The position numbers were made by a program, and so were the translations under genes. Source: an uncultured Lachnospiraceae bacterium (GTDB taxonomy: Bacteria; Bacillota; Clostridia; Lachnospirales; Lachnospiraceae). From it: a stretch of DNA of 64,000 bases. The notes beneath the pieces are model-generated. The model saw only the letters and a program-made list of their open reading frames with translations, ran no database searches and was not told the origin of the DNA. Shown in pieces: positions 17,858 to 63,684 of the stretch. Where the stretch lies: the NCBI GenBank assembly GCA_902779575.1, contig CACZBW010000011.1:33864-97863 (forward strand), written 5' to 3'. Positions within the stretch are counted from its first letter, which is position 1. The number at the start of each line of letters is the position of its first letter.

Positions 17858-18715
17858 TCAGTTGACCATTTTTTCACGGAATTCGGTGGGCGATACGCCT
17901 TTTACCTTGCGGAAGGCGCGGTTGAAGGTGGAGATACTGGAAAATCCCGCTTCAAAGGCGACTTCCGTGATCTGCCTCGACAGGTCCAGGGAGATGCTTT
18001 CCGCCCTGCGGATCCGCTCGATGGTCAGGTAGTCGATGAAGGTCATGTTGGTATAGCGTTTGAAAAGATGTGAAAAATGCGACTTGCTGATTCCCATATG
18101 ACGGGCCACACTGTCCAGCGTGAGATGCTGCGCGCAGTTGTTTTTGATGTAAAGGCATGCTTCCGCCATCAGTTTCAGCGATTCCTGCTCTTTCCCCGTG
18201 CTTTTCGTATGCTCGTTTTCTTCCGCGTTTTCCCAGTATTCGCCCAGCTCGGCAAAGAAATTCAGCATGCAGGCATACATTTTCGTCTCCCGGAAAGGCT
18301 GCCGGGAGAAGTAGAGCTCCGCAATTTCCTTGACGGTCATGACCATGTGCCCGCTGCTGAAGCGGACCGGATCATAGCGGATGCAGTGCCGCCTTGGGAA
18401 GCCGGAGACAAGCGCGCTCAGTTCGCCGATTGTGGAGAGCAGTTCCATCGGGAACTGGATAATCAGCCAGGAATCGTCGCCCGATGACTGTACGGAGTGC
18501 AGTTCACCGGGATAGATGATCATCATATCGTTGATCCTGAGCTCGTACCCGTTGAAATTAACCGTCGCCGCATTCCGGTCGGACAGGCTCAGGAGAATCT
18601 CCGCGTAGGGGTGCCAGTGGATCTGGTTGTTGACGCCGGTATCCACGGTCCGCGAGACATTGATCTTCTTTCCATCTTCAAAGACAAGCAGTTCATAATA
18701 ATCCGAAACGGGCAT
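17858..18715 (-). CDS. AraC family transcriptional regulator
   Basis: A 285-residue regulator convergent to the sugar operon. The N-terminal half is a cupin-like sensing domain (NNQIHWHPYAEILLSLSD, then GYELRINDMMIIYPGELHSV). The C-terminal hundred residues form the paired helix-turn-helix AraC domain, with HLTLDSVARHMGISKSHFSHLFK and ITEVAFEAGFSSISTFNRAFRKVKGVSPTEFR. The start at 18715 follows a strong GGAGGT site; the longer frame from 18766 adds 17 residues without one. By position it probably controls the carbohydrate cluster in response to its sugar, although its target site is not visible. Confidence 0.93.
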   Translation of the reverse strand: MPVSDYYELLVFEDGKKINVSRTVDTGVNNQIHWHPYAEILLSLSDRNAATVNFNGYELRINDMMIIYPGELHSVQSSGDDSWLIIQFPMELLSTIGELSALVSGFPRRHCIRYDPVRFSSGHMVMTVKEIAELYFSRQPFRETKMYACMLNFFAELGEYWENAEENEHTKSTGKEQESLKLMAEACLYIKNNCAQHLTLDSVARHMGISKSHFSHLFKRYTNMTFIDYLTIERIRRAESISLDLSRQITEVAFEAGFSSISTFNRAFRKVKGVSPTEFREKMVN

Positions 18716-18845
18716 GATACACCTCCGTTTTCCGAACCGGTATACAGCAGTCCGCTGAGGCGGCAAAACTGCCGGGTGGAAAATGTGTGAAGTCTGGTGG
18801 ACAGGCTGTGATCAGCAGCTTTCATGGCGCTCATTTCCGTGCATC

Positions 18846-18865
18846 CGGACGGCATTAGCCGTCCG
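18846..18865 (-). other. Perfect hairpin downstream of MFS remnant
   Basis: CGGACGGC (18846-18853) pairs perfectly with 18858-18865 around ATTA. It lies between the stop of the decayed MFS fragment and the AraC gene, both leftward. No clear T run follows on the minus strand, so terminator function is uncertain. Confidence 0.4.
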
Positions 18866-18895
18866 CCTGTACGGGGATGGGCGCCGCTTTTTTAT

Positions 18896-19042
18896 TCATC
18901 CAAATACAACTCCGTCGTCCTTCGTTCGCAGGAAGCAGGCCAGGAGCATGATTCCTGCTGTTATGCAGGCCATAATCCGGTAAAAAGCAGGGAAGGACGT
19001 CCTTTTCACCATAATTCCACCCATGTTCTGCATGAAAATCAT
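18896..19042 (-). pseudogene. Remnant of an MFS transporter C-terminus
   Basis: A 48-codon frame on the minus strand encodes a hydrophobic stretch (residues 18-38, FPAFYRIMACITAGIMLLACF) preceded by MQNMGGIMVKRTS and ended by LRTKDDGVVFG. This pattern looks like the last membrane helix and tail of a major facilitator transporter. A stop codon lies six codons upstream of its first ATG, and no other transporter sequence is visible. I read it as a decay remnant; a genuine small membrane peptide is possible, since an extended minus-10 sequence (TGCTATAAT, near 19090) lies upstream. Confidence 0.4.
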
Positions 19043-19252
19043 TCCCAGGCTGTTGCATCAGGCTGATTCAGCATTCCCCTATCCGGATTATAGCATTTCC
19101 TGTGAAAGGTGAGGACTCCTTTGTCTGTTTTACCACACACTTTCTGACAAGGTTTTTCCTGGCAGGTTCGGTGATTCCGTTTGTGTGCCGGTCGGAGGGG
19201 CCAGGGCAGTTAATGGCGTGACGTCCTGCCCGGTTCGGCGGTGACCGGCAGG

Positions 19253-19266
19253 CGAACAAACGTACG
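19253..19266 (+). promoter_or_regulatory. LexA (SOS) box-like sequence upstream of small ORFs
   Basis: CGAACAAACGTACG differs at one base from the Gram-positive consensus CGAAC-N4-GTTCG. It lies 109 bases before the 33-residue ORF. A possible promoter (TTGTAC 19289-19294, 16 bases, TAGAAT 19311-19316) starts 22 bases downstream, and an inverted repeat TTTGGCAG (19272-19279)/CTGCCAAA (19294-19301) overlaps it. Confidence 0.4.
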
Positions 19267-19361
19267 AAACCTTTGGCAGGCGGGATTTTTGTACTGCCAA
19301 AATGAGAGAATAGAATCATCCAATAAAGAAACAGACATTCCCGAAAGGAGGATCAGACAGG

Positions 19362-19463
19362 ATGAAAGGCTATTGTACGGAAAGCGGGTATATGGGTTAT
19401 GTGGACGGAAGATATATGCTGTTCGCATCGGAAGAAGACTACAACGAATTCATCATGGACTGA
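19362..19463 (+). CDS. Small protein, 33 residues
   Basis: A short frame encoding a 33-residue acidic, aromatic peptide that begins MKGYCTESGYMGYVDGRYML and ends DYNEFIMD. A near-perfect AAAGGAGG (19344-19351) lies ten bases before the ATG, the strongest translational signal in this region, which is why I call it despite its size. It contains five tyrosines and one cysteine, and no membrane segment. I cannot assign a function. It is the first of three small ORFs (33, 74 and 37 residues) running rightward, preceded by an SOS-box-like sequence and convergent with a Y-family polymerase gene. Confidence 0.65.
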   Translation: MKGYCTESGYMGYVDGRYMLFASEEDYNEFIMD

Positions 19464-19665
19464 TGCCGGGAAAAAGACCCAAGGGTCGGCCGATGAGATT
19501 CGGGATAAGGAGACAGAAAACCGGAAAACACGGACAGATTTCGGAGAATGGAAGGAAAGCCGGAAAACGAAAAAGGCTCCGAAGCGCGGATTTCGGAGAA
19601 CGGGCAGGCTTTCCGGGAACCATGCACGGGGAAGAGATATCAGAATTATGGGAAGGGAGAAAGTC

Positions 19666-19890
19666 ATGGCAGTTTTGGTTGGGAAGACACTGGATTACAA
19701 TCACGGCAGGAGACCGGATGCATTTGGACATGTATCCGAATTCGGGTTTTTCTGCTACATGCCGCAGGAGGAGAACAGTGAACTGCTGCGGGCAGGGATC
19801 GACCCGGAGAAGATGGGCTACCTCAGCGGGAAAGAACGGAGAAGGATTCTGGAGAGAGCCGGATTGAATCCGAAGGATTACGACTTCTGA
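19666..19890 (+). CDS. Small hypothetical protein, 74 residues
   Basis: A 74-residue soluble protein starting MAVLVGKTLDYNHG. The start at 19666 is chosen because GGAAGGGAG lies just upstream; the frame is open further back to 19399, but that part overlaps the 33-residue ORF and is lysine/arginine-rich without homology signs. The C-terminal half reads LLRAGIDPEKMGYLSGKERRRILERAGLNPKDYDF, which looks like a compact helical domain with two similar helix-loop segments (AGIDPEKMGYLS and AGLNPKDYDF). No known family is recognised. It is likely cotranscribed with the preceding small gene. Confidence 0.6.
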   Translation: MAVLVGKTLDYNHGRRPDAFGHVSEFGFFCYMPQEENSELLRAGIDPEKMGYLSGKERRRILERAGLNPKDYDF

Positions 19891-20051
19891 GCAGGGCAGA
19901 GAGGGGCAGGGACTGCGGAGGCGTTTCCCTGGAATACTTAAATGCATCCTGGAGACACGGGGGTTTTTCAGGGACTGCGGCGGAGATCGTCCGGGAAAGG
20001 GCCCGGAAGAAGAGAGATTAAAACATATACGGGGACATAAGGGGGAAGAAG

Positions 20052-20165
20052 ATGAAAGTGCATGTGGAATACGATGATTTCGGTGAATTTATTGAAATTC
20101 TTGAGGATCTGACAGAGGATGCGGAAAGCTCCCGGAGCGGGTACGGCAGCAGGAAAAATCAGTGA
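20052..20165 (+). CDS. Small acidic protein, 37 residues
   Basis: A 37-residue frame with GGGGGAAGAAG directly upstream. The peptide starts MKVHVEYDDFGEFIEILEDL and is rich in aspartate and glutamate in its first 26 residues, ending in a serine/glycine/arginine-rich tail. It has no membrane segment and no family I recognise. The good ribosome binding site and the neighbouring small ORFs on the same strand support it; a chance frame remains possible. Function unknown. Confidence 0.45.
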   Translation: MKVHVEYDDFGEFIEILEDLTEDAESSRSGYGSRKNQ

Positions 20166-20357
20166 ATCCCGGAAACTTCATAGGAATATAAATCCCGGAA
20201 TCGCCGCAAAGATAACCTGGGTATAATCGAACACGGAGATGGTCAATTTCAGGCCGGAGGGTGGATTTCTTTTTTTCTTTGCGTATATAGAACTGTCAGC
20301 AAAGACAGGCTGACATAAAAACAATAAAGATATGCGAAGTGTAAAAGGAGAAAAATT

Positions 20358-21023
20358 ATGAATAAATTCAAGACAATGTTTCTGGCAGGCACAGTGGCTG
20401 CAGCCATGATGGCAGGCGGGATATCCGCATTTGCGGTGGAGACGGAAGCCGATGAGAAGCCGGTATATGAGATGGATCTGGTTCTGGAGACCGCGAAGCC
20501 GATTGCAGCTGCTCTCCGCGGATTCATGCTGGATGAGAGCATAAAGCAGTTTGACGAGGCAGGTCTTTCCTTCCTGGATGAGTGCGACGTCTCCCTGAAC
20601 TGCCCGCTGATCGCGGCGGCGCAGAAGAATGAGGACGGAACCTTCACCGTCTTTGGCGAGCTCTGCACATATAACTACAAGCTCGACGGAGCCGACCTGA
20701 AGTTCGTAAGCAGCTGGGAGCCGGCAGCCGTGATTACCCTCTCGAAGGAATCGGATGTGAGCTTTGTCGTCGATGACGTCAAGTACCTTCCGGAGGGAGA
20801 GGCGTTTGCAGATGCGGTTGATGAAGTCTGCGTACAGATGGGAGCCGACAGCGACTTTTTCCTTAATTATCTTCCGGACTCCGAGGAACCTGCGCTTCTG
20901 GCAGAGTTCCTGAGATTCGCCAATGAGAATCCGAATGTCCAGACGATCGAGGTCAGAGGCGAACAGATGACAGTCGGCGGAGCAGCTGATGAAGTCGCGA
21001 TGTTTATCAACGGACTGCTGTAA
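20358..21023 (+). CDS. Secreted protein of unknown function
   Basis: A 221-residue protein with a clear signal peptide (MNKFKTMFLAGTVAAAMMAGG, cleavage probable after SAFA) and an acidic mature part. A GGAGAAAAAT site precedes the ATG. No transmembrane segment follows and no catalytic motif is apparent. The mature region looks mixed alpha/beta, with a repeated theme of Asp/Glu-rich turns. Several Lachnospiraceae carry similar-looking small secreted proteins, but I cannot assign a family. It is followed by a strong terminator and is convergent with the Y-family polymerase gene. Confidence 0.7.
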   Translation: MNKFKTMFLAGTVAAAMMAGGISAFAVETEADEKPVYEMDLVLETAKPIAAALRGFMLDESIKQFDEAGLSFLDECDVSLNCPLIAAAQKNEDGTFTVFGELCTYNYKLDGADLKFVSSWEPAAVITLSKESDVSFVVDDVKYLPEGEAFADAVDEVCVQMGADSDFFLNYLPDSEEPALLAEFLRFANENPNVQTIEVRGEQMTVGGAADEVAMFINGLL

Positions 21024-21094
21024 TCGCCATAACTGAACCATGTATGGGGAAGCGGGACTTCCTGCGCATGAAAATGTTTGAGCAGAACTAAATT

Positions 21095-21124
21095 GGGGCC
21101 TGTGCGTGTGCACGGGCCCTTTTT
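21095..21124 (+). terminator. Intrinsic terminator
   Basis: GGGCCTGTGC pairs with GCACGGGCCC (one G-T wobble) and is followed by TTTTT. It ends the secreted-protein transcript just before the convergent polymerase stop codon. Confidence 0.8.
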
Positions 21125-21137
21125 GACGGAAGAGATA

Positions 21138-22553
21138 TCAGGCCCTGTGGCCGCCGATCTGTCTGTTCCGCTCAAGCTGTGTCGCGCCTTTGAGCATGTT
21201 CTTCCCGGTGAAAATCCCGCCTGCGCCGAAGCGTCCCCGGATCTCGGATATCGCGCCCTGCAGCCGCTTCTCGCGTTCCAGAGCCTCATAGTCGATGAAA
21301 AGGTTCATCTGGTAATATCCGTAATCCTCATGGGTTCCTTCCGCGCAGACGCCCAGCCGGCGGAAGAGCAGCCGGTGGTCCGTTCCCGCGTCGAAAGCGG
21401 CCAGGATGCGGGGGGCCGCGATCGCTGCGGAGTTTGTTTCCATAGGCATCCGCACCGTGCCATTGCTGTGCTTCGGGTGCAGTCTTCCGTAGAAATCCAG
21501 AACGACCTCCCCGTCATAATAGGGACAGGCCTCCAGGCTTTTCCAGTCATAGCTGACCCACCAGGTGAACTTCGGGGCGAGCAGCTGTTTCAGGAACATC
21601 TCAGAACACAGGCTGTCGATCATCTCCGAGAAAACGATCCGTGCTTCCTGATAGGAATAGGGCCTGGGCAGGACCTGTCCGCTCGACAGGCTGTGCCCGC
21701 TGGAACGGTATTCCTTGATATCCTTCATCGTCACGGGATCCATGCCCCAGGCGTGGGCGATCAGGATCTCGCCGTCGATTCCGAAAGTTTTATAGAAAAA
21801 TTCCTCGTCATACTGTGAGCGCGCCGCGATATCGCCCATCGTGAACAGGGCGTTCTTTTCCAGCCTCCGGGCCTTGCCGGGACCGATCATCCAGAAGTCG
21901 ACGAGCGGCCTGTGGTCCCAGAGACGGTAACAGTAGGAAACCTCGTTCAGCTCCGCGATCCGGACTCCGTTCTCGTCCGGCGGGCTCTTTTTGGCCGTGA
22001 TATCCATGCATACTTTGGCAAGGTACAGGTTCGTCCCGATCCCGATGGTGGCTGTAATGCCGGTCTCCTTCAGGATGGTCCGGATCATGGTCATGGCCAT
22101 GACGTGCGCCGGATGGACGCCCTGCCTGCGCGCTTCGGACCGGTAAAAGTTAAGGTAGGGCGTGCAGTAGATGAAGGATTCATCTACCGAGTAAACGTGA
22201 ATATCCTCGGCAGCCGCATAGCGCAGGAGAATCGAATAGATTTTTGCCGAGATCTGCTCATAGAGCGCCATACGGGGCGTGGCTATGATGTAATCGACCC
22301 GGCTCCGGGTCCGGAGTTCATAGTCCCGGATCGCCCTTTTCGCTTCAAACAGGCGGGGGCGGGAAGGCACGCCGATCGCCTTGAGCGCGGGGGAGACGGC
22401 GAGACAGATCGTCTGGTCGGAGCGGGAAGGGTCCGCGACAAGGAGCCGGACCTTCAGCGGGTCCAGACCCCGGGAGACAGCTTCCACAGAAGCATAGTAG
22501 GACTTCATATCCACAGCTATAAAACAGCTGGCAGACAGATCGTATGACAGCAT
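21138..22553 (-). CDS. Y-family DNA polymerase (UmuC/ImpB-like)
   Basis: A 471-residue error-prone translesion polymerase. The catalytic core shows the first acidic residue in FIAVDMKSYYASVEA (D15) and the paired acidic residues in HVYSVDESFIY (D124, E125), both typical of UmuC/DinB enzymes. The rest of the palm and little-finger regions follow (TATIGIGTNLYLAKVCMDI, then WMIGPGKARRLEKN). It is longer than DinB (about 350 residues) and closer to UmuC/UvrX types. The ATG at 22553 follows GGAGG; the longer frame adds an unrelated basic tail. Two LexA-like boxes in the upstream promoter indicate induction by DNA damage. Confidence 0.93.
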   Translation of the reverse strand: MLSYDLSASCFIAVDMKSYYASVEAVSRGLDPLKVRLLVADPSRSDQTICLAVSPALKAIGVPSRPRLFEAKRAIRDYELRTRSRVDYIIATPRMALYEQISAKIYSILLRYAAAEDIHVYSVDESFIYCTPYLNFYRSEARRQGVHPAHVMAMTMIRTILKETGITATIGIGTNLYLAKVCMDITAKKSPPDENGVRIAELNEVSYCYRLWDHRPLVDFWMIGPGKARRLEKNALFTMGDIAARSQYDEEFFYKTFGIDGEILIAHAWGMDPVTMKDIKEYRSSGHSLSSGQVLPRPYSYQEARIVFSEMIDSLCSEMFLKQLLAPKFTWWVSYDWKSLEACPYYDGEVVLDFYGRLHPKHSNGTVRMPMETNSAAIAAPRILAAFDAGTDHRLLFRRLGVCAEGTHEDYGYYQMNLFIDYEALEREKRLQGAISEIRGRFGAGGIFTGKNMLKGATQLERNRQIGGHRA

Positions 22554-22727
22554 TACGTCGCCCTCCTTTCTGTATGGATGTTCGTTCTTCTGCCGTACTG
22601 CAGTATATCCGGTGTTCCGATTCGCGCAGCCTCCGGCATTTCTGCTGTACTGTGTTCTGTCCGGCGTTTTTGCGGCTGGCATCCTGTCCGGCGCTGGTAT
22701 CCGGCAGCAGCGTATATGGCAGGAGAT

Positions 22728-22783
22728 CGAACATACATTCGCCCTTCGCCAAGATCATACACCGAACATTTGTTCTAAGTCAA
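22728..22783 (-). promoter_or_regulatory. SOS-regulated promoter with two LexA boxes
   Basis: On the minus strand TTGACT (22783-22778), an 18-base spacer and TATGAT (22759-22754) form a good sigma-A promoter directed at the polymerase gene. A LexA box, CGAACATTTGTTCT (22763-22776), lies inside the spacer. A second, CGAACATACATTCG (22728-22741), lies just past the predicted start of transcription. They match CGAAC-N4-GTTCG with one mismatch each. The arrangement would block the promoter when LexA is bound. Confidence 0.75.
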
Positions 22784-22950
22784 GGGGTAAATGGACGCCC
22801 TGGAGAAAGCTCGTTTTCAGGACACTGCAACCGGCTATCCGGGAAGGGGAAAGGAGAAAAGGCCTTGTAAACCGGCGTTTTCTGTGGCATGATGCGGAAA
22901 GACGGAGCATTCGGAAACGGCCGGAAAACAGGATATCGGGAGATGCGGAT

Positions 22951-23454
22951 ATGAAAGACAAGAGCATAGGCCATGCGGAAATGGAAAACGGAAGCATGGA
23001 AACTACGGAGCTGGAAGACGGGAGCATAATTGAAGAGCTGCTGGAAAAACCATACTGGATCGCGGATATTCTTCCTGAACAGGTTCCGGCGGATTCGGCC
23101 GGGCAGTATTTCAGAGTAGAGGAGTATTATCTGCAGCAGGCTCAGATGGAGATTCTGCACCGGAAATATCTGAACATTGTTCTGAAGCTGAACTGTTACT
23201 ATGATATCCGTTTCTCCTGCGACTATGGAGAACACTGGGAACTCAATCCCGCGCCCGGGCTTCTGGAAAAACTGCTGACGGGCGGCAGCAGAACGGATAC
23301 ATTTCATATACTGTTCGATTCGGAGCAGGCGCTGGCAGTCCTGAACAGCGATGATACTTATCTGACGGTCTATCATCCGACGGAAAAACTGCTTTATCTG
23401 CTGCGTGAACTTGCCCGGGCGGAGGGCCTTTTCGTCTGGAAGCCGGAGCAGTAA
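22951..23454 (+). CDS. Hypothetical protein divergent from the Y-family polymerase
   Basis: A 167-residue soluble protein with a short Glu/Ser/Met-rich N-terminal leader containing a repeated pattern (MENGSME, LEDGSII) and a main domain from about residue 28 (LLEKPYWIADILPEQVP). The domain holds aromatic-rich stretches such as VEEYYLQQAQMEILHRKY and CYYDIRFSCDYGEHW. The start at 22951 gives the conserved-looking N-terminus and has a GGGAG sequence nearby; the frame is open upstream to 22612. I do not recognise the family. It shares the intergenic region of the SOS promoter, so it may be part of the same response. Confidence 0.7.
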   Translation: MKDKSIGHAEMENGSMETTELEDGSIIEELLEKPYWIADILPEQVPADSAGQYFRVEEYYLQQAQMEILHRKYLNIVLKLNCYYDIRFSCDYGEHWELNPAPGLLEKLLTGGSRTDTFHILFDSEQALAVLNSDDTYLTVYHPTEKLLYLLRELARAEGLFVWKPEQ

Positions 23455-23491
23455 AATATCCGGCGTCGGATAATCCTCGCTTCATCACAAA

Positions 23492-23517
23492 AGAGGCGGC
23501 TTTCAGCCGCCTCTTTG
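23492..23517 (+). terminator. Intrinsic terminator
   Basis: AGAGGCGGC (23492-23500) pairs perfectly with GCCGCCTCT (23506-23514), then TT. An A run precedes it, so it may serve both the rightward gene and the leftward flavodiiron gene beyond it. Confidence 0.75.
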
Positions 23518-23595
23518 CATAACCCCCGTATGGGAATTACAGATTGAGATTATTCCACTTCTCACTCTTTCTGAGAACTTCTTTATCCCGCAGTT

Positions 23596-25107
23596 TTATT
23601 CAACCTTTTCAAATTTGTCGGGACCGACGCCGCAGATCGGGCAGACATAGTCTGCAGGGAGCTCTTCGCCCTCATATTCATAACCGCACACCGTGCAGCG
23701 CCATTTTACTGAGGAGGAGGCCTGTTCCGCCTCGGTCTCCTGCAGCACAGTTCCTCCCAGCGAGGCTCCGACTGCATCGGCTAAACCGACCAGATCGATG
23801 GCGGTTACATTATCCGGGGAGGACAGGAATGTCACCGGATCCGCCGCGTAGCGTGTTCCTTCCAGGCGGTCAAGGATTTCCGCCATCAGCCTTGCCGCTA
23901 CGGGCGACCAGCTGCCATTTTCAATAAGCGCGAACGTGCGGTTCTTCAGGTTATGGGCTTCAAGATCCAGGAGGAAATTCTTCATGGGGGTGAAGATTCC
24001 GTTATTGTAGGTAATGGAAGCCAGCACGATGTGGCTGCAGCGGAAGGCTTCGCCGATCAGCTCGCTGACGTGGGTCTTGGATACGTCGTAAACCGACACG
24101 TTGGCGACCCCTGCCCTGGAAAGGGCGGCCGCGACCATGTTGGCAGCGCTCTCCGTTCCGCCGTATACGGAACCGTAGACGATCATCACAGCCTGTTCTT
24201 CAGGGGTGTAGCTGCTCCATTTGTCATATTTGTCCAGAATCCAGCCCAGGTTGTTTCTCCATACGGGGCCGTGTGTGGGACAGAGGAGCCGGATATCCAC
24301 CGTTGCGGCTTTCGCCAGCACGTCCTGCACATACTTGCCGTATTTTCCTACAATGTTGGTATAGTATCTTCTCGCGTCCGGAAGCCATTCGGTCTCAAAG
24401 GGCACTTCGTCCGCGAACAGATTGCCGTTCAGGGCTCCGAAGCTGCCGAATGCGTCCGCGGAGAACAGGGCGCCGGAGTAGTCATCGTAGGTCATCATGA
24501 CTTCCGGCCAGTGCACCATGGGGGCGAGCACAAAAGTCAGCGTATGGAGGCCTGTGTTCAGGGTATCTCCCTCGGTGACAATGATCGCCCGGCCGGAGAT
24601 ATCGCAGGAGAAGAACTGGTTCAGGATGGCCGCTGCGGGAGCGGTCAGCACGACTTTCGCTTCCGGATAGCGCACCAGAACTTCGGTGATCGCGGAGCTG
24701 TGGTCCGGTTCCATGTGGTTTACCACGAGATAATCCAGCGGGCGGTCTCCCAGTACGCTCAGCACATTCTCAAAAAACTGGCCGGTTACCGAGCGGTCCA
24801 CCGTATCGAACAGGACTGTTTTATCATCCACAAGGAGGTAGGAGTTGTAAGCAACCCCCCTGGGAATCGGATAGACGTTTTCAAACAGCTCGGTTCTCTT
24901 CTCGCTGGCTCCGACGTAATAAATATCATTTGTAACATTCCGCACGCAGCCTACGCCCGCGAATTTCTTTTTCCCGTCAAAAGAAGGCGCATCTTCCGGG
25001 GCTTCCTCTCCCAGCGCGCTGCCGCTCAGGATGCCCGCCATCGCGGCTCCCGCGGCTCCCGCGGCGGCTGCCTTAATAAAACTTCTTCTTCCGATTTCTG
25101 CTGCCAT
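23596..25107 (-). CDS. Flavodiiron protein with C-terminal rubredoxin and Tat-like signal
   Basis: A 503-residue oxygen or nitric oxide reductase of the flavodiiron class. A metallo-beta-lactamase-like diiron domain (about 45-290) contains NHMEPDHSS with ligands H131, E133, D135 and H136. A flavodoxin domain follows (about 300-440; [18 protein letters not shown]). A rubredoxin domain ends the protein, with [12 protein letters not shown] and [12 protein letters not shown] (C471, C474, C489, C492). The N-terminus is unusual: [20 protein letters not shown], a twin-arginine-type signal with hydrophobic core ending near LSGSALG. The start at 25107 has a weak AGGTA site; a longer frame reaches 25284. 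Related proteins are normally cytoplasmic. Confidence 0.93.
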
Positions 25108-28907: not shown

Positions 28908-30005
28908 TCAGATCTGACGGATATCCCTGATATAGTCGTCGAAATTCAGTCCGACATATTCGCCGATCATCTTCAGTTCGTCGACCGTCTTGTCATTGAC
29001 CGGAATGCCGTTTGCCAGACGGTCCGCCTGGGAGAGCATGGCCTGCTCGCCGGGGGTGTAGACGCGCTCCTGACCGTCGGCCGTCGGGGATTCCCGGAGC
29101 TCGCGGAGGAGGGTGGACATATTGGCGCGGATCTCTTTCTTGTCGCCGAAGATGCCGTAATCGATGGCGGCGAAACCGAAGGAGGTGTCGCCCATGCCGC
29201 CGTTTTCCACATGGGGCGAGGTATGGCCTCCGGCGAGAATTCCTGTGAACAGCTCGGCGATGATTCCGAAACCGTAGCCCTTGTGGGAACCGGTGTCTTT
29301 GGTCATGCCGCCCAGCGGGAAGATGCCGCCGAAGTCTTTCGCGTTAATCAGGTCGAGAACATGTCCCGCGTCCGTGCTGATATGGCCGGTCTCATCGGCA
29401 GCCCAGCCTTCGTGGAGCGGTTCTCCGCGCTTATTGTAGACTTCAACCTTGCCTCTCGGAATGACAGTGGTGGCGGCGTCAAACCAGAAATAATAAGGAT
29501 CGGCCGGCATGCAGACTGCCAGAGGGCTGGTTCCGAGCATCGCTTTTTTACCGAAGGTGGGGATGGCGATGGCTTCCGTGTTGGTGGAGCTGAAGCCGAT
29601 CATATCCTCGTCGCCGGCCATCCTGGAATAGTAGCCTGCGATTCCGTAATGGTTGCAGTTCCGGACAGTCACCATGCCGAACCCGTGTTCTTTGGCTTTA
29701 TCGATGGCCATCTGCATGGCTTTGCGGGCAGTTACCTGTCCCATCGTCCGGTTCGCTTCTATGACGGCGGATACCGGCGTTTCAAAGACGATCTCCATGC
29801 GGGCTTTCGGATCCACGTGCCCGCCGACAATGGAATTGTGATAGCGGATCATCCGCTGTACGCCGTGAGATTCGATTCCGTAAAGATCCGCGCACAGAAC
29901 AACATCGGTGATTCCCCGGGCTTCATCTTCCGTAAACCCATGGTTCTTATAGATATCTTCACAGTATTTCCGGACTTCCGCCACATTCAGTTTACAGTAT
30001 CCCAT
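28908..30005 (-). CDS. Ldh family (malate/L-lactate/ureidoglycolate) oxidoreductase
   Basis: A 365-residue NAD(P)-dependent dehydrogenase of the LDH2/MDH2 family, structurally distinct from classic lactate dehydrogenases. Visible features are DLYGIESHGVQRM near residue 41, RNCNHYGIAGYYS near residue 116 (nucleotide-contact histidine), and SHKGYGFGIIAELFTGILAGG. Family members oxidise malate, sulfolactate, ureidoglycolate, or 2,3-diketogulonate. A GGAGG site precedes the ATG. It is monocistronic here. The specific 2-hydroxyacid substrate cannot be told, though the nearby lactonase and glycerate genes suggest sugar-acid metabolism. Confidence 0.9.
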   Translation of the reverse strand: MGYCKLNVAEVRKYCEDIYKNHGFTEDEARGITDVVLCADLYGIESHGVQRMIRYHNSIVGGHVDPKARMEIVFETPVSAVIEANRTMGQVTARKAMQMAIDKAKEHGFGMVTVRNCNHYGIAGYYSRMAGDEDMIGFSSTNTEAIAIPTFGKKAMLGTSPLAVCMPADPYYFWFDAATTVIPRGKVEVYNKRGEPLHEGWAADETGHISTDAGHVLDLINAKDFGGIFPLGGMTKDTGSHKGYGFGIIAELFTGILAGGHTSPHVENGGMGDTSFGFAAIDYGIFGDKKEIRANMSTLLRELRESPTADGQERVYTPGEQAMLSQADRLANGIPVNDKTVDELKMIGEYVGLNFDDYIRDIRQI

Positions 30006-62658: not shown

Positions 62659-63684
62659 ATGAGTACGGAAATGGCTCTGGGAAGGGCAAATCTGAAAACG
62701 CTCTACATCATGAAAATCCTGACGGAACGCACGGATGAGACGCACCGCCTTAGCGCAAGCGAGATCCGGGATATCCTTATGCGGGAATATGACATCGACA
62801 TAGACCGCCGCACGATCTATACGGAGATGGAAAAACTGTCCGCCTTCGGCCTTGATATCGAGCTTGTGGGCGGGAAAGGGGCCGGATATTATCTCGCCTC
62901 GCGAAGCTTCGAGCTGCCTGAGCTCAAGCTTCTGGTGGACGCGGTGCAGTTCTCCAGGTTTATTACGGAAAAGAAGTCGGGGGAGCTGATCCGGAAGCTG
63001 GAGGGGCTCTGCAGCCGCGAGGAGGCCAGGCAGCTCAGCGGCCAGGTGGTCATCTACAACCGTCCCAAGACGACAAACGAGACCATTTACTACAATGTGG
63101 ACATGCTGCATACCGCGATATTCAACAGCCGGCAGATCGCATTTGTCTATGCGGACTGGACACTGAAGAAAAAGCTGGAACCCAGGCACGACGGGGCGGT
63201 TTACAGGGTTTCTCCGCTCCACCTGATATGGGACGATGAGAACTACTATCTGATCGGCTTTGACGAAAATGCGAAAAAAGTAAAGCATTACCGCGTGGAT
63301 AAAATGCGGAATATGGAAGTGCGGCCGGTGCGCCGGACGAAGAAGGCCATCGAGCAGAAAGTGGACCTTGCGGCTTTCTCTCGAAAAACTTTCGGCATGT
63401 TCGGCGGAGAGGATGAGGAAGTTTACCTTTTGTGTGAAAACCGCCTGATCGGCGTGATTCTTGACCGCTTCGGGACGGATGTCTGGGTGAAGCCGGAGGG
63501 GGAGGATCATTTTTCGGCGCACATGCCGGTGACGGTCAGCCCTCAGTTCTTCGGCTGGATTGCAGGCCTCGGAAGGGCGGTAAAGATCACGGGACCGGAA
63601 CCTGTAAGGCGGAAATATCTGGAATTTCTGAAGGGAATCCTTGAGGAGTACGGACGGGAGGAAGATGCGGTCCCTGAATCATGA
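62659..63684 (+). CDS. WYL domain-containing transcriptional regulator
   Basis: A 341-residue regulator. The N-terminal region (about 10-80) forms a winged helix-turn-helix (HRLSASEIRDILMREYDIDIDRRTIYTEMEKLSAFG). The WYL domain follows at about 140-220 (SPLHLIWDDENYYLIGFDENAKK, hallmark residues around YYLIG), and a C-terminal extension completes the protein. WYL domains sense nucleic acids or nucleotides; members regulate stress, metabolism or defence. No defence gene lies beside it here, and the upstream GH5 gene suggests a metabolic role. A GGGAGG site lies upstream of ATG 62659. Confidence 0.92.
   Translation: MSTEMALGRANLKTLYIMKILTERTDETHRLSASEIRDILMREYDIDIDRRTIYTEMEKLSAFGLDIELVGGKGAGYYLASRSFELPELKLLVDAVQFSRFITEKKSGELIRKLEGLCSREEARQLSGQVVIYNRPKTTNETIYYNVDMLHTAIFNSRQIAFVYADWTLKKKLEPRHDGAVYRVSPLHLIWDDENYYLIGFDENAKKVKHYRVDKMRNMEVRPVRRTKKAIEQKVDLAAFSRKTFGMFGGEDEEVYLLCENRLIGVILDRFGTDVWVKPEGEDHFSAHMPVTVSPQFFGWIAGLGRAVKITGPEPVRRKYLEFLKGILEEYGREEDAVPES

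Follow-up and report, generated by a model that had tools for sequence, protein, structure and literature searches.

The 64,000-nucleotide stretch analysed here (hereafter the window; G000:C11:33864-97863, within the 3.55-Mb genome G000 of an uncultured Lachnospiraceae bacterium) codes on its plus strand for a 33-residue micropeptide, which we call p33 (19362-19463; MKGYCTESGYMGYVDGRYMLFASEEDYNEFIMD). Upstream of p33 lie a LexA-like box and a promoter with a dyad over its -35 region; downstream, three further reading frames separate it from a Y-family DNA polymerase on the minus strand; and a WYL-WCX transcription factor is encoded 43 kb away. An earlier note on this DNA had taken the region for a candidate SOS cassette and suggested that its small proteins could be induced by damage and assist or modulate the polymerase. 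We compared the locus with that of a sister species (G001), with a genus set of 19 genomes and with 397 genomes of the family, representing 334 genera. These comparisons make it fairly probable that p33 is instead the effector of a second, LexA-independent DNA-damage response in Lachnospiraceae, run by a DriD-like WYL regulator.

The p33 family, its promoter and its leader

Between the window and the sister species, the p33 gene shows four synonymous and no nonsynonymous changes, and by this pattern the 33-residue open reading frame (ORF) is a real gene. A profile search with a seven-row alignment as query matched 348 stretches in a named collection, from which we retained 80 loci; the full set comprises 116 loci (108 distinct, as some represent one species drawn from two collections). 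The family extends to 90 of the 397 genomes and 77 of the 334 genera. Across 150 distinct sequences, the residues M1, G3, G9, M11, G12, F21 and Y27 are invariant and the mean net charge is -4.4. An AlphaFold model (pLDDT, the predicted local distance difference test, of 94) displays a β-hairpin followed by a helix, and a search of this fold against the PDB returned 38 matches, all with E 3.7 or worse and none at E 0.001. Likewise, there was no credible match to p33 in Pfam, NCBIfam, PHROGs or PADLOC, and a text search of the full-text literature for a p33 octapeptide found none. The best hit of a PDB sequence search, a photosystem chain with E 0.046, was set aside as chance. A candidate β-clamp-binding motif of the YxLFA type, which expects a Gln, was also dropped, as the position of that Gln varies across the family. 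In phage records, p33 was seen in two unannotated faecal scaffolds, one of them marked UNVERIFIED; none was found in plasmid records. Like the damage-induced small proteins SidA, DidA, YneA and TisB, p33 is tiny and apparently linked to damage and under tight control; unlike them, it is predicted to adopt a compact hairpin-helix fold and, judged by eye, has no evident membrane segment.

A Gibbs sampler run without a prior on 151 non-redundant regions upstream of p33 recovered an ungapped motif, G-TCC-G-n-TTTTAT-n-GGA-C-N8-TGn-TAnnnT, which starts at a median distance of 80 bp ahead of the ATG. Its core is a GTCC-N8-GGAC dyad over the -35 region followed by an extended -10 element, TGn-TAnnnT, and 136 of the 151 regions score above 8 with the matrix derived from those same regions. 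The -10 element is well defined (T80 A94 T65 n n T95), whereas the -35 hexamer is poor: 23, 71 and 28 of 122 promoters match TTGACA at one, two and three of the six positions, respectively. No other sigma-A promoter was detected upstream of the dyad beyond the level of mononucleotide shuffles. In the window, the dyad TTTGGCAG-N14-CTGCCAAA (19272-19301, plus strand) lies over the -35 region as the proposed site of the WYL regulator, and the 34-bp motif GCGGGATTTTTGTACTGCCAAAATGAGAGAATAG occupies 19280-19313 on the same strand, with GAGAAT at 19306-19311 as its -10. Scored with a matrix built without the window and the sister species, this promoter reaches 18.0, the highest score among 127,934 positions. 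Second is a site at 1041 with 17.4, which lies inside a transporter-like ORF and was taken as chance. This promoter of the activator type is a better-supported control element of p33 than the LexA box.

The upstream inverted repeat of this region (IR1) had been considered as a structured RNA; we read it as a DNA site because it falls within the ungapped promoter motif with its -10 signature. Among the strongest covarying pairs at p33 loci are the dyad positions -4/17, -2/15 and 2/11. An Rfam search of 18700-23600 in the window gave two matches, both far below the gathering scores, and six relatives gave nothing. A second repeat (IR2), with locus-specific complementarity to the ribosome-site region and a loop of variable length (by eye), was retained as a feature of the RNA in read-through transcripts. 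Across the family, the sequence of the motif region at about 18-44 complements that around the ribosome site, in a manner specific to each locus. If transcription from the p33 promoter is assumed to begin 7 nt after the -10, the complementary arm is cut from the own-start message. Over 122 loci, the mean unpaired probability of the Shine-Dalgarno element is 0.37 in the read-through RNA and 0.70 in the own-start message, with leaders from other loci and shuffled leaders giving 0.51 and 0.54; the element is more open in the own-start message at 104 of the 122 loci, and by more than 0.3 at 59. This suggests that read-through messages do not allow p33 to be translated whereas those from its own promoter do, as though unprogrammed expression carried a cost; late genes of phage T4 follow the same logic of a leader closed to read-through. 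Because of this apparent cost, the action we favour for p33, tentatively and at less than even odds, is that of a soluble inhibitor or checkpoint protein.

The promoter at other genes and the WYL-WCX regulator

Searches of the 397 genomes showed that the promoter is shared with other genes. A strict pattern gave 20 matches and none for its reversed control; a looser one gave 66 against 7, so that about seven chance matches are expected. The 66 sites include seven at p33 (assigned from coordinates), three at recA, two at addB, one at a WYL operon, two at cas3 and one at a remnant CRISPR (clustered regularly interspaced short palindromic repeats) array. They further include three at hsdM, two at hsdR-type genes, one at a C5-methylase, nine at ImmA-type peptidases and five within about 0.45 kb of XRE-type genes. 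Pfam matches confirmed RecA (three), AddB (two), Cas3_HD (two, of which the second did not count as a stretch in its own right), HsdM (two), HSDR_N (two), the C5-methylase, M78 peptidases (two), WYL/WCX, HIRAN, SNF2 and HATPase; the long ORF at L454 matched no Pfam family, and the remaining labels were given by eye. The TG of the extended -10 is present in 51% of the 59 non-p33 sites, though the looser pattern did not require it. Several of the 66 matches fall within ORFs of 150 or more residues on either strand; one match of the strict pattern (L283) is inside an ORF labelled by eye as spoIIIAG-like. The dyad arms themselves behave differently at these genes: the outer arms covary in p33 loci, whereas the 59 non-p33 sites have no consistent excess of outer pairs (the largest excess among pairs 1 to 8 is at pair 5, 0.47 versus 0.29). 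Arm covariation is thus not a general feature of the shared promoter.

At three recA loci (L307, L442 and L455), the dyad promoter lies upstream and an exact LexA core nearer to the gene; the promoter is at -132 in L307 and -222 in L442. In the WYL operon (L449), a 69-residue ORF comes first and the WYL gene follows 417 nt from the promoter. At L280, L295, L304, L316 and L461, small genes for XRE-type repressors lie about 0.4 kb downstream of the promoter, which in some cases reads antisense to another helix-turn-helix gene; these sites may link the regulon to the induction of prophages or mobile elements. At L293, it directly precedes short remnant CRISPR repeats ending in GTGGGAGCGTGGATTGAAAT. 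A scan of viral contigs gave at least 120 matches, on the order of chance by rough estimate, and was not used.

The proposed regulator is a 341-residue protein (62659-63684, plus strand) with WYL (PF13280, E 1.3e-11) and WCX (PF25583, E 2.6e-5) domains above the cut-off and HTH_11 below its own. A sequence comparison with proteins of solved structure identifies its relatives there as WYL proteins, among them 8tp8 from C. crescentus and PafBC. Using a profile built from seven proteins (six adjacent to p33 and the window's own) and an E-value limit of 1e-80 fixed before the result was seen, we found this type in 223 of the 397 genomes, most with a single match. It is present in 83 of 90 genomes with p33 versus 140 of the 307 others (odds ratio 14; Fisher 7e-17), a test that treats genomes as independent of phylogeny and is hence optimistic, as are the following counts. 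Among genomes with the promoter, 47 of 52 have the regulator. This association persists outside p33 genomes, where the regulator occurs in 26 of 31 genomes with the promoter versus 114 of 276 without. In the genus, it is found in 15 of 19 genomes and in seven of the eight that have p33. The two genes are neighbours at 19 of 109 loci (11 with the WYL gene downstream, five divergent and three upstream; two pairs are the same sequence), and a WYL gene is found no more than 5 kb away from p33 at 22 or more of 94 places.

Such proximity and co-occurrence would also fit p33 as a feedback partner of the regulator, a variant of the WYL-run response whose odds overlap with it. A small, acidic protein that is well folded in its model would suit this role, but 140 genomes have the regulator without p33, and to our knowledge neither PafBC nor DriD requires such a peptide. 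We accordingly rank feedback after the checkpoint role, as a possibility of roughly one in four.

It is rather unlikely that the dyad promoter, though real and shared, is used by a regulator other than the WYL protein. We infer the binding of that protein to the dyad; its gene lies away from p33 at most loci and is lacking in seven of the 90 p33 genomes, and the XRE-type genes near five of the 66 sites (by eye) might offer another candidate. Against this stand the WYL genes beside p33, the presence of the promoter before the WYL operon itself, the strong co-occurrence even where p33 is missing, and a layout resembling that of DriD promoters as outlined in PMC12340889.

LexA boxes, the polymerase and the reading frames around p33

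The LexA-like box CGAACAAACGTACG (19253-19266, plus strand), with one mismatch to CGAAC-N4-GTTCG, lies 109 bp before the p33 start; the sister species has a box at the equivalent position, and G007 has one with an exact core at -106. By count alone, LexA boxes carry no meaning here: the window has 16 matches at up to two mismatches versus 32.08 expected from shuffles, fewer than by chance, and exact GAAC-N4-GTTC cores number 49 genome-wide versus 43 for the reversed control. It is their recurrence in relatives that supports them. A second exact core in the window (29678-29691, within a 365-residue ORF at 28908-30005) is probably chance.

These boxes bear on whether p33 is an ordinary LexA (SOS) gene, with a dyad promoter that is constitutive or unrelated. 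In line with this, the window and its sister have a box upstream of p33, and none of the other palindromes among the 256 of the form W-N4-rc(W) occurs upstream of the family as often as GAAC-N4-GTTC, with an exact core within 200 bp at 17 of 93 loci and one within a single mismatch at 28 (reversed controls, 1 and 5). Yet this is a minority: 65 of the 93 p33 genes, unlike members of the Gram-positive LexA regulon, have no core at up to one mismatch, whereas the dyad promoter precedes 136 of 151. The position of the box also varies: one group has it at the start site, whereas in another it lies farther upstream (by eye). We thus regard an ordinary SOS gene as improbable.

The polymerase, in contrast to most p33 genes, resembles a member of that regulon. 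Encoded by a 514-residue ORF (21138-22682, minus strand; PF00817, E 6.1e-24), it is one of three Y-family polymerases in the genome and is 91-93% identical in the sister. Apart from the sister, its relatives align only from residue 47-54, and because of this the ORF is probably overlong, with the true start near 22553. Its minus-strand promoter, recognized by eye, is TTGACT-N18-TATGAT, and the spacer holds the box CGAACATTTGTTCT (22763-22776, minus strand; one mismatch overall, core exact). A second box, CGAACATACATTCG (22728-22741, minus strand; one mismatch), lies just past the transcription start (by eye). The sister polymerase likewise has two boxes, and a core with at most one mismatch falls in the interval from -260 to +60 relative to the matched start at seven of 12 polymerase loci, the window and sister included. 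The pair is thus convincing as a sequence feature by position and recurrence, overlapping the promoter and recurring as expected of a LexA regulon. The recA of this genome has a perfect box, CGAACATTCGTTCG. What the earlier note had reported of three sites, two of them at the promoter of a Y-family polymerase, is borne out.

The cassette built on these sites is not supported, although the sites are real. Among the genus genomes, p33 is present in eight of 19 and the window's polymerase type in 13 of 19, but the two adjoin in the window genome and its sister only; the other five genus genomes that have both carry them on separate contigs, with two of the p33 copies at contig ends. Conserved company with the polymerase, which the earlier note had proposed as a check, is wanting for p33, and p33 also occurs without the polymerase, an observation which that note had named towards its own refutation. 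That the small proteins are its damage-induced partners or modulators is very unlikely: despite the adjacency in the window and sister and a PolIV-type polymerase beside p33 in G009, any of three polymerase types sought in the fetched flanks (of which the shorter spans from 0 to about 7.6 kb) is near only four of 116 p33 loci (three of 108 distinct), one of these being 5 kb away. A damage setting is retained for the first small ORF, p33, and not as a partner of the polymerase.

The neighbours of p33 in fact differ from locus to locus across 109 loci. An Mfd-type gene, a label checked in Pfam on one member cut to 600 residues, lies upstream within 3.5 kb at 37 of them and ends at most 150 bp from p33 at 21. 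At L156, the mfd stop abuts the p33 promoter and a LexA box lies inside mfd. A gene for an O6-methylguanine-DNA methyltransferase directly follows p33 at L075, L108, L113, L121 and L127 (L075 and L121 share their sequence).

The two other small ORFs of the window are local companions of p33. Both exist in the sister, but they evolve loosely. The 74-residue ORF (p74; 19666-19890, plus strand) is 84% identical in the sister, with 18 synonymous and 21 nonsynonymous codon changes, and is present in five of 61 genomes; its C-terminal half recurs beside p33 in G009 and G016, and G023 has a version with 37% identity. It is an instance of an optional middle ORF between p33 and p37 (also at L047 and L049) with a conserved C-terminus, AGIDPExMGYL...AGLNPKxxDF. 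The 37-residue ORF (p37; 20052-20165, plus strand) shows nine synonymous and 12 nonsynonymous codon changes; its HVEYDDFGEF core has a relative downstream of p33 in all eight p33 genomes of the genus and was seen outside it at L092, L106 and L142. Between the small ORFs and the polymerase, a 221-residue ORF (20358-21023, plus strand) with a signal-peptide-like start (by eye), absent from the earlier note, is 90% identical in the sister. Finally, a 167-residue ORF (p167; 22951-23454, plus strand), which had been counted in the cassette, has no counterpart in the sister, though the polymerase next to it is so well conserved there, and no credible match in the protein families searched. It is possibly recent or acquired.

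A candidate damage response and its relatives among WYL systems

CapW is a local repressor beside its own system. Together with BrxR, which binds inverted-repeat sites, it ties WYL regulators to phage defence in the cyclic-oligonucleotide-based antiphage signalling (CBASS) and bacteriophage exclusion (BREX) systems (PMC9122601, PMC9122588). In contrast to such local repression, the promoter described here is of the activator type and found at many loci. Mycobacterial PafBC, with its RecA-NDp promoters, is a WYL activator of DNA-repair genes, and recA is there under both WYL and LexA control (PMC8223512), a dual control also suggested here by the three recA loci. However, PafBC acts as a heterodimer, and its motif, unlike the dyad, is not palindromic (PMC6789036), so that we do not assign the system described here to it. 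The same account gives an average of 2.8 WYL regulators per organism in Firmicutes (PMC6789036).

The layout found here resembles that of DriD of Caulobacter crescentus, described as a WYL-WCX activator that is triggered by single-stranded DNA and, at weak promoters with an extended -10, sits over the -35 (PMC12340889, PMC11804915). Its reported targets are didA, bapE, recJ and dnaG, with didA, like p33, coding for a small protein (PMC12340889, PMC4211646). The proposed system shares with DriD a regulator of the winged-helix-turn-helix-WYL-WCX architecture, a pseudo-palindrome across the -35 at a fixed distance from an extended -10, and a poor -35 (one or two of six matches in the DriD promoters described, one to three here). 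It differs in belonging to another phylum and in having recA, CRISPR-Cas and restriction genes among its targets. Since it departs from the DriD half-site consensus, ATACGAC-N7-GTCGTAT (PMC12340889), we do not file it as a DriD regulon proper. A literature search on Clostridia and Firmicutes returned no WYL-run damage regulon recognized as described.

By the mechanism we propose, DNA damage would yield single-stranded DNA to be bound by the WYL-WCX protein of 62659-63684. A dimer of this protein on the dyad across the -35 would then hold the sigma-A polymerase at a promoter without a usable -35, and p33 would be expressed; so would recA, addB and phage-defence genes wherever they have the same promoter. 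The LexA box may add SOS control to a minority of p33 copies, including that of the window.

Several observations weigh against this WYL-run response. The window dyad departs from GTCC-N8-GGAC, and its genome lacks any exact match to the pattern used for other genes, so that the evidence for a regulon beyond p33 comes from relatives; most p33 promoters also miss the exact looser pattern (seven of 94 places match). Thirty of the 66 sites form a mixed group outside the repair, defence, lysogeny, WYL and p33 classes, which hold the other 36. The leader of the window copy is barely insulated (0.47 in read-through versus 0.52 from its own start). The co-occurrence disregards phylogeny and was measured with a profile made from p33-adjacent proteins and that of the window, and there remain the seven p33 genomes without a WYL match and the 140 with one that have no p33. 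Lastly, the DriD half-sites, as given in its source, are the other way round (CGAC-N7-GTCG).

In its full form, the account describes a hitherto undescribed LexA-independent regulon of Lachnospiraceae. In it, a DriD-like WYL activator would unite DNA repair (recA, addB), CRISPR-Cas and restriction-modification with the control of prophages. Often among its targets, p33 would be a 33-residue checkpoint protein of a new fold, and its leader would shut the ribosome site in read-through messages and expose it only in damage-induced ones. With all these parts taken together, it is a tentative proposal with perhaps a one-in-three prospect. Were it to hold, a readable promoter code would predict, across a large family of gut bacteria, which genes for repair and defence a single regulator controls. 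In some genomes, recA would appear to have a second, WYL-type input beside LexA, as in mycobacteria, and a tiny, very conserved protein, p33, would be tied to the damage response.

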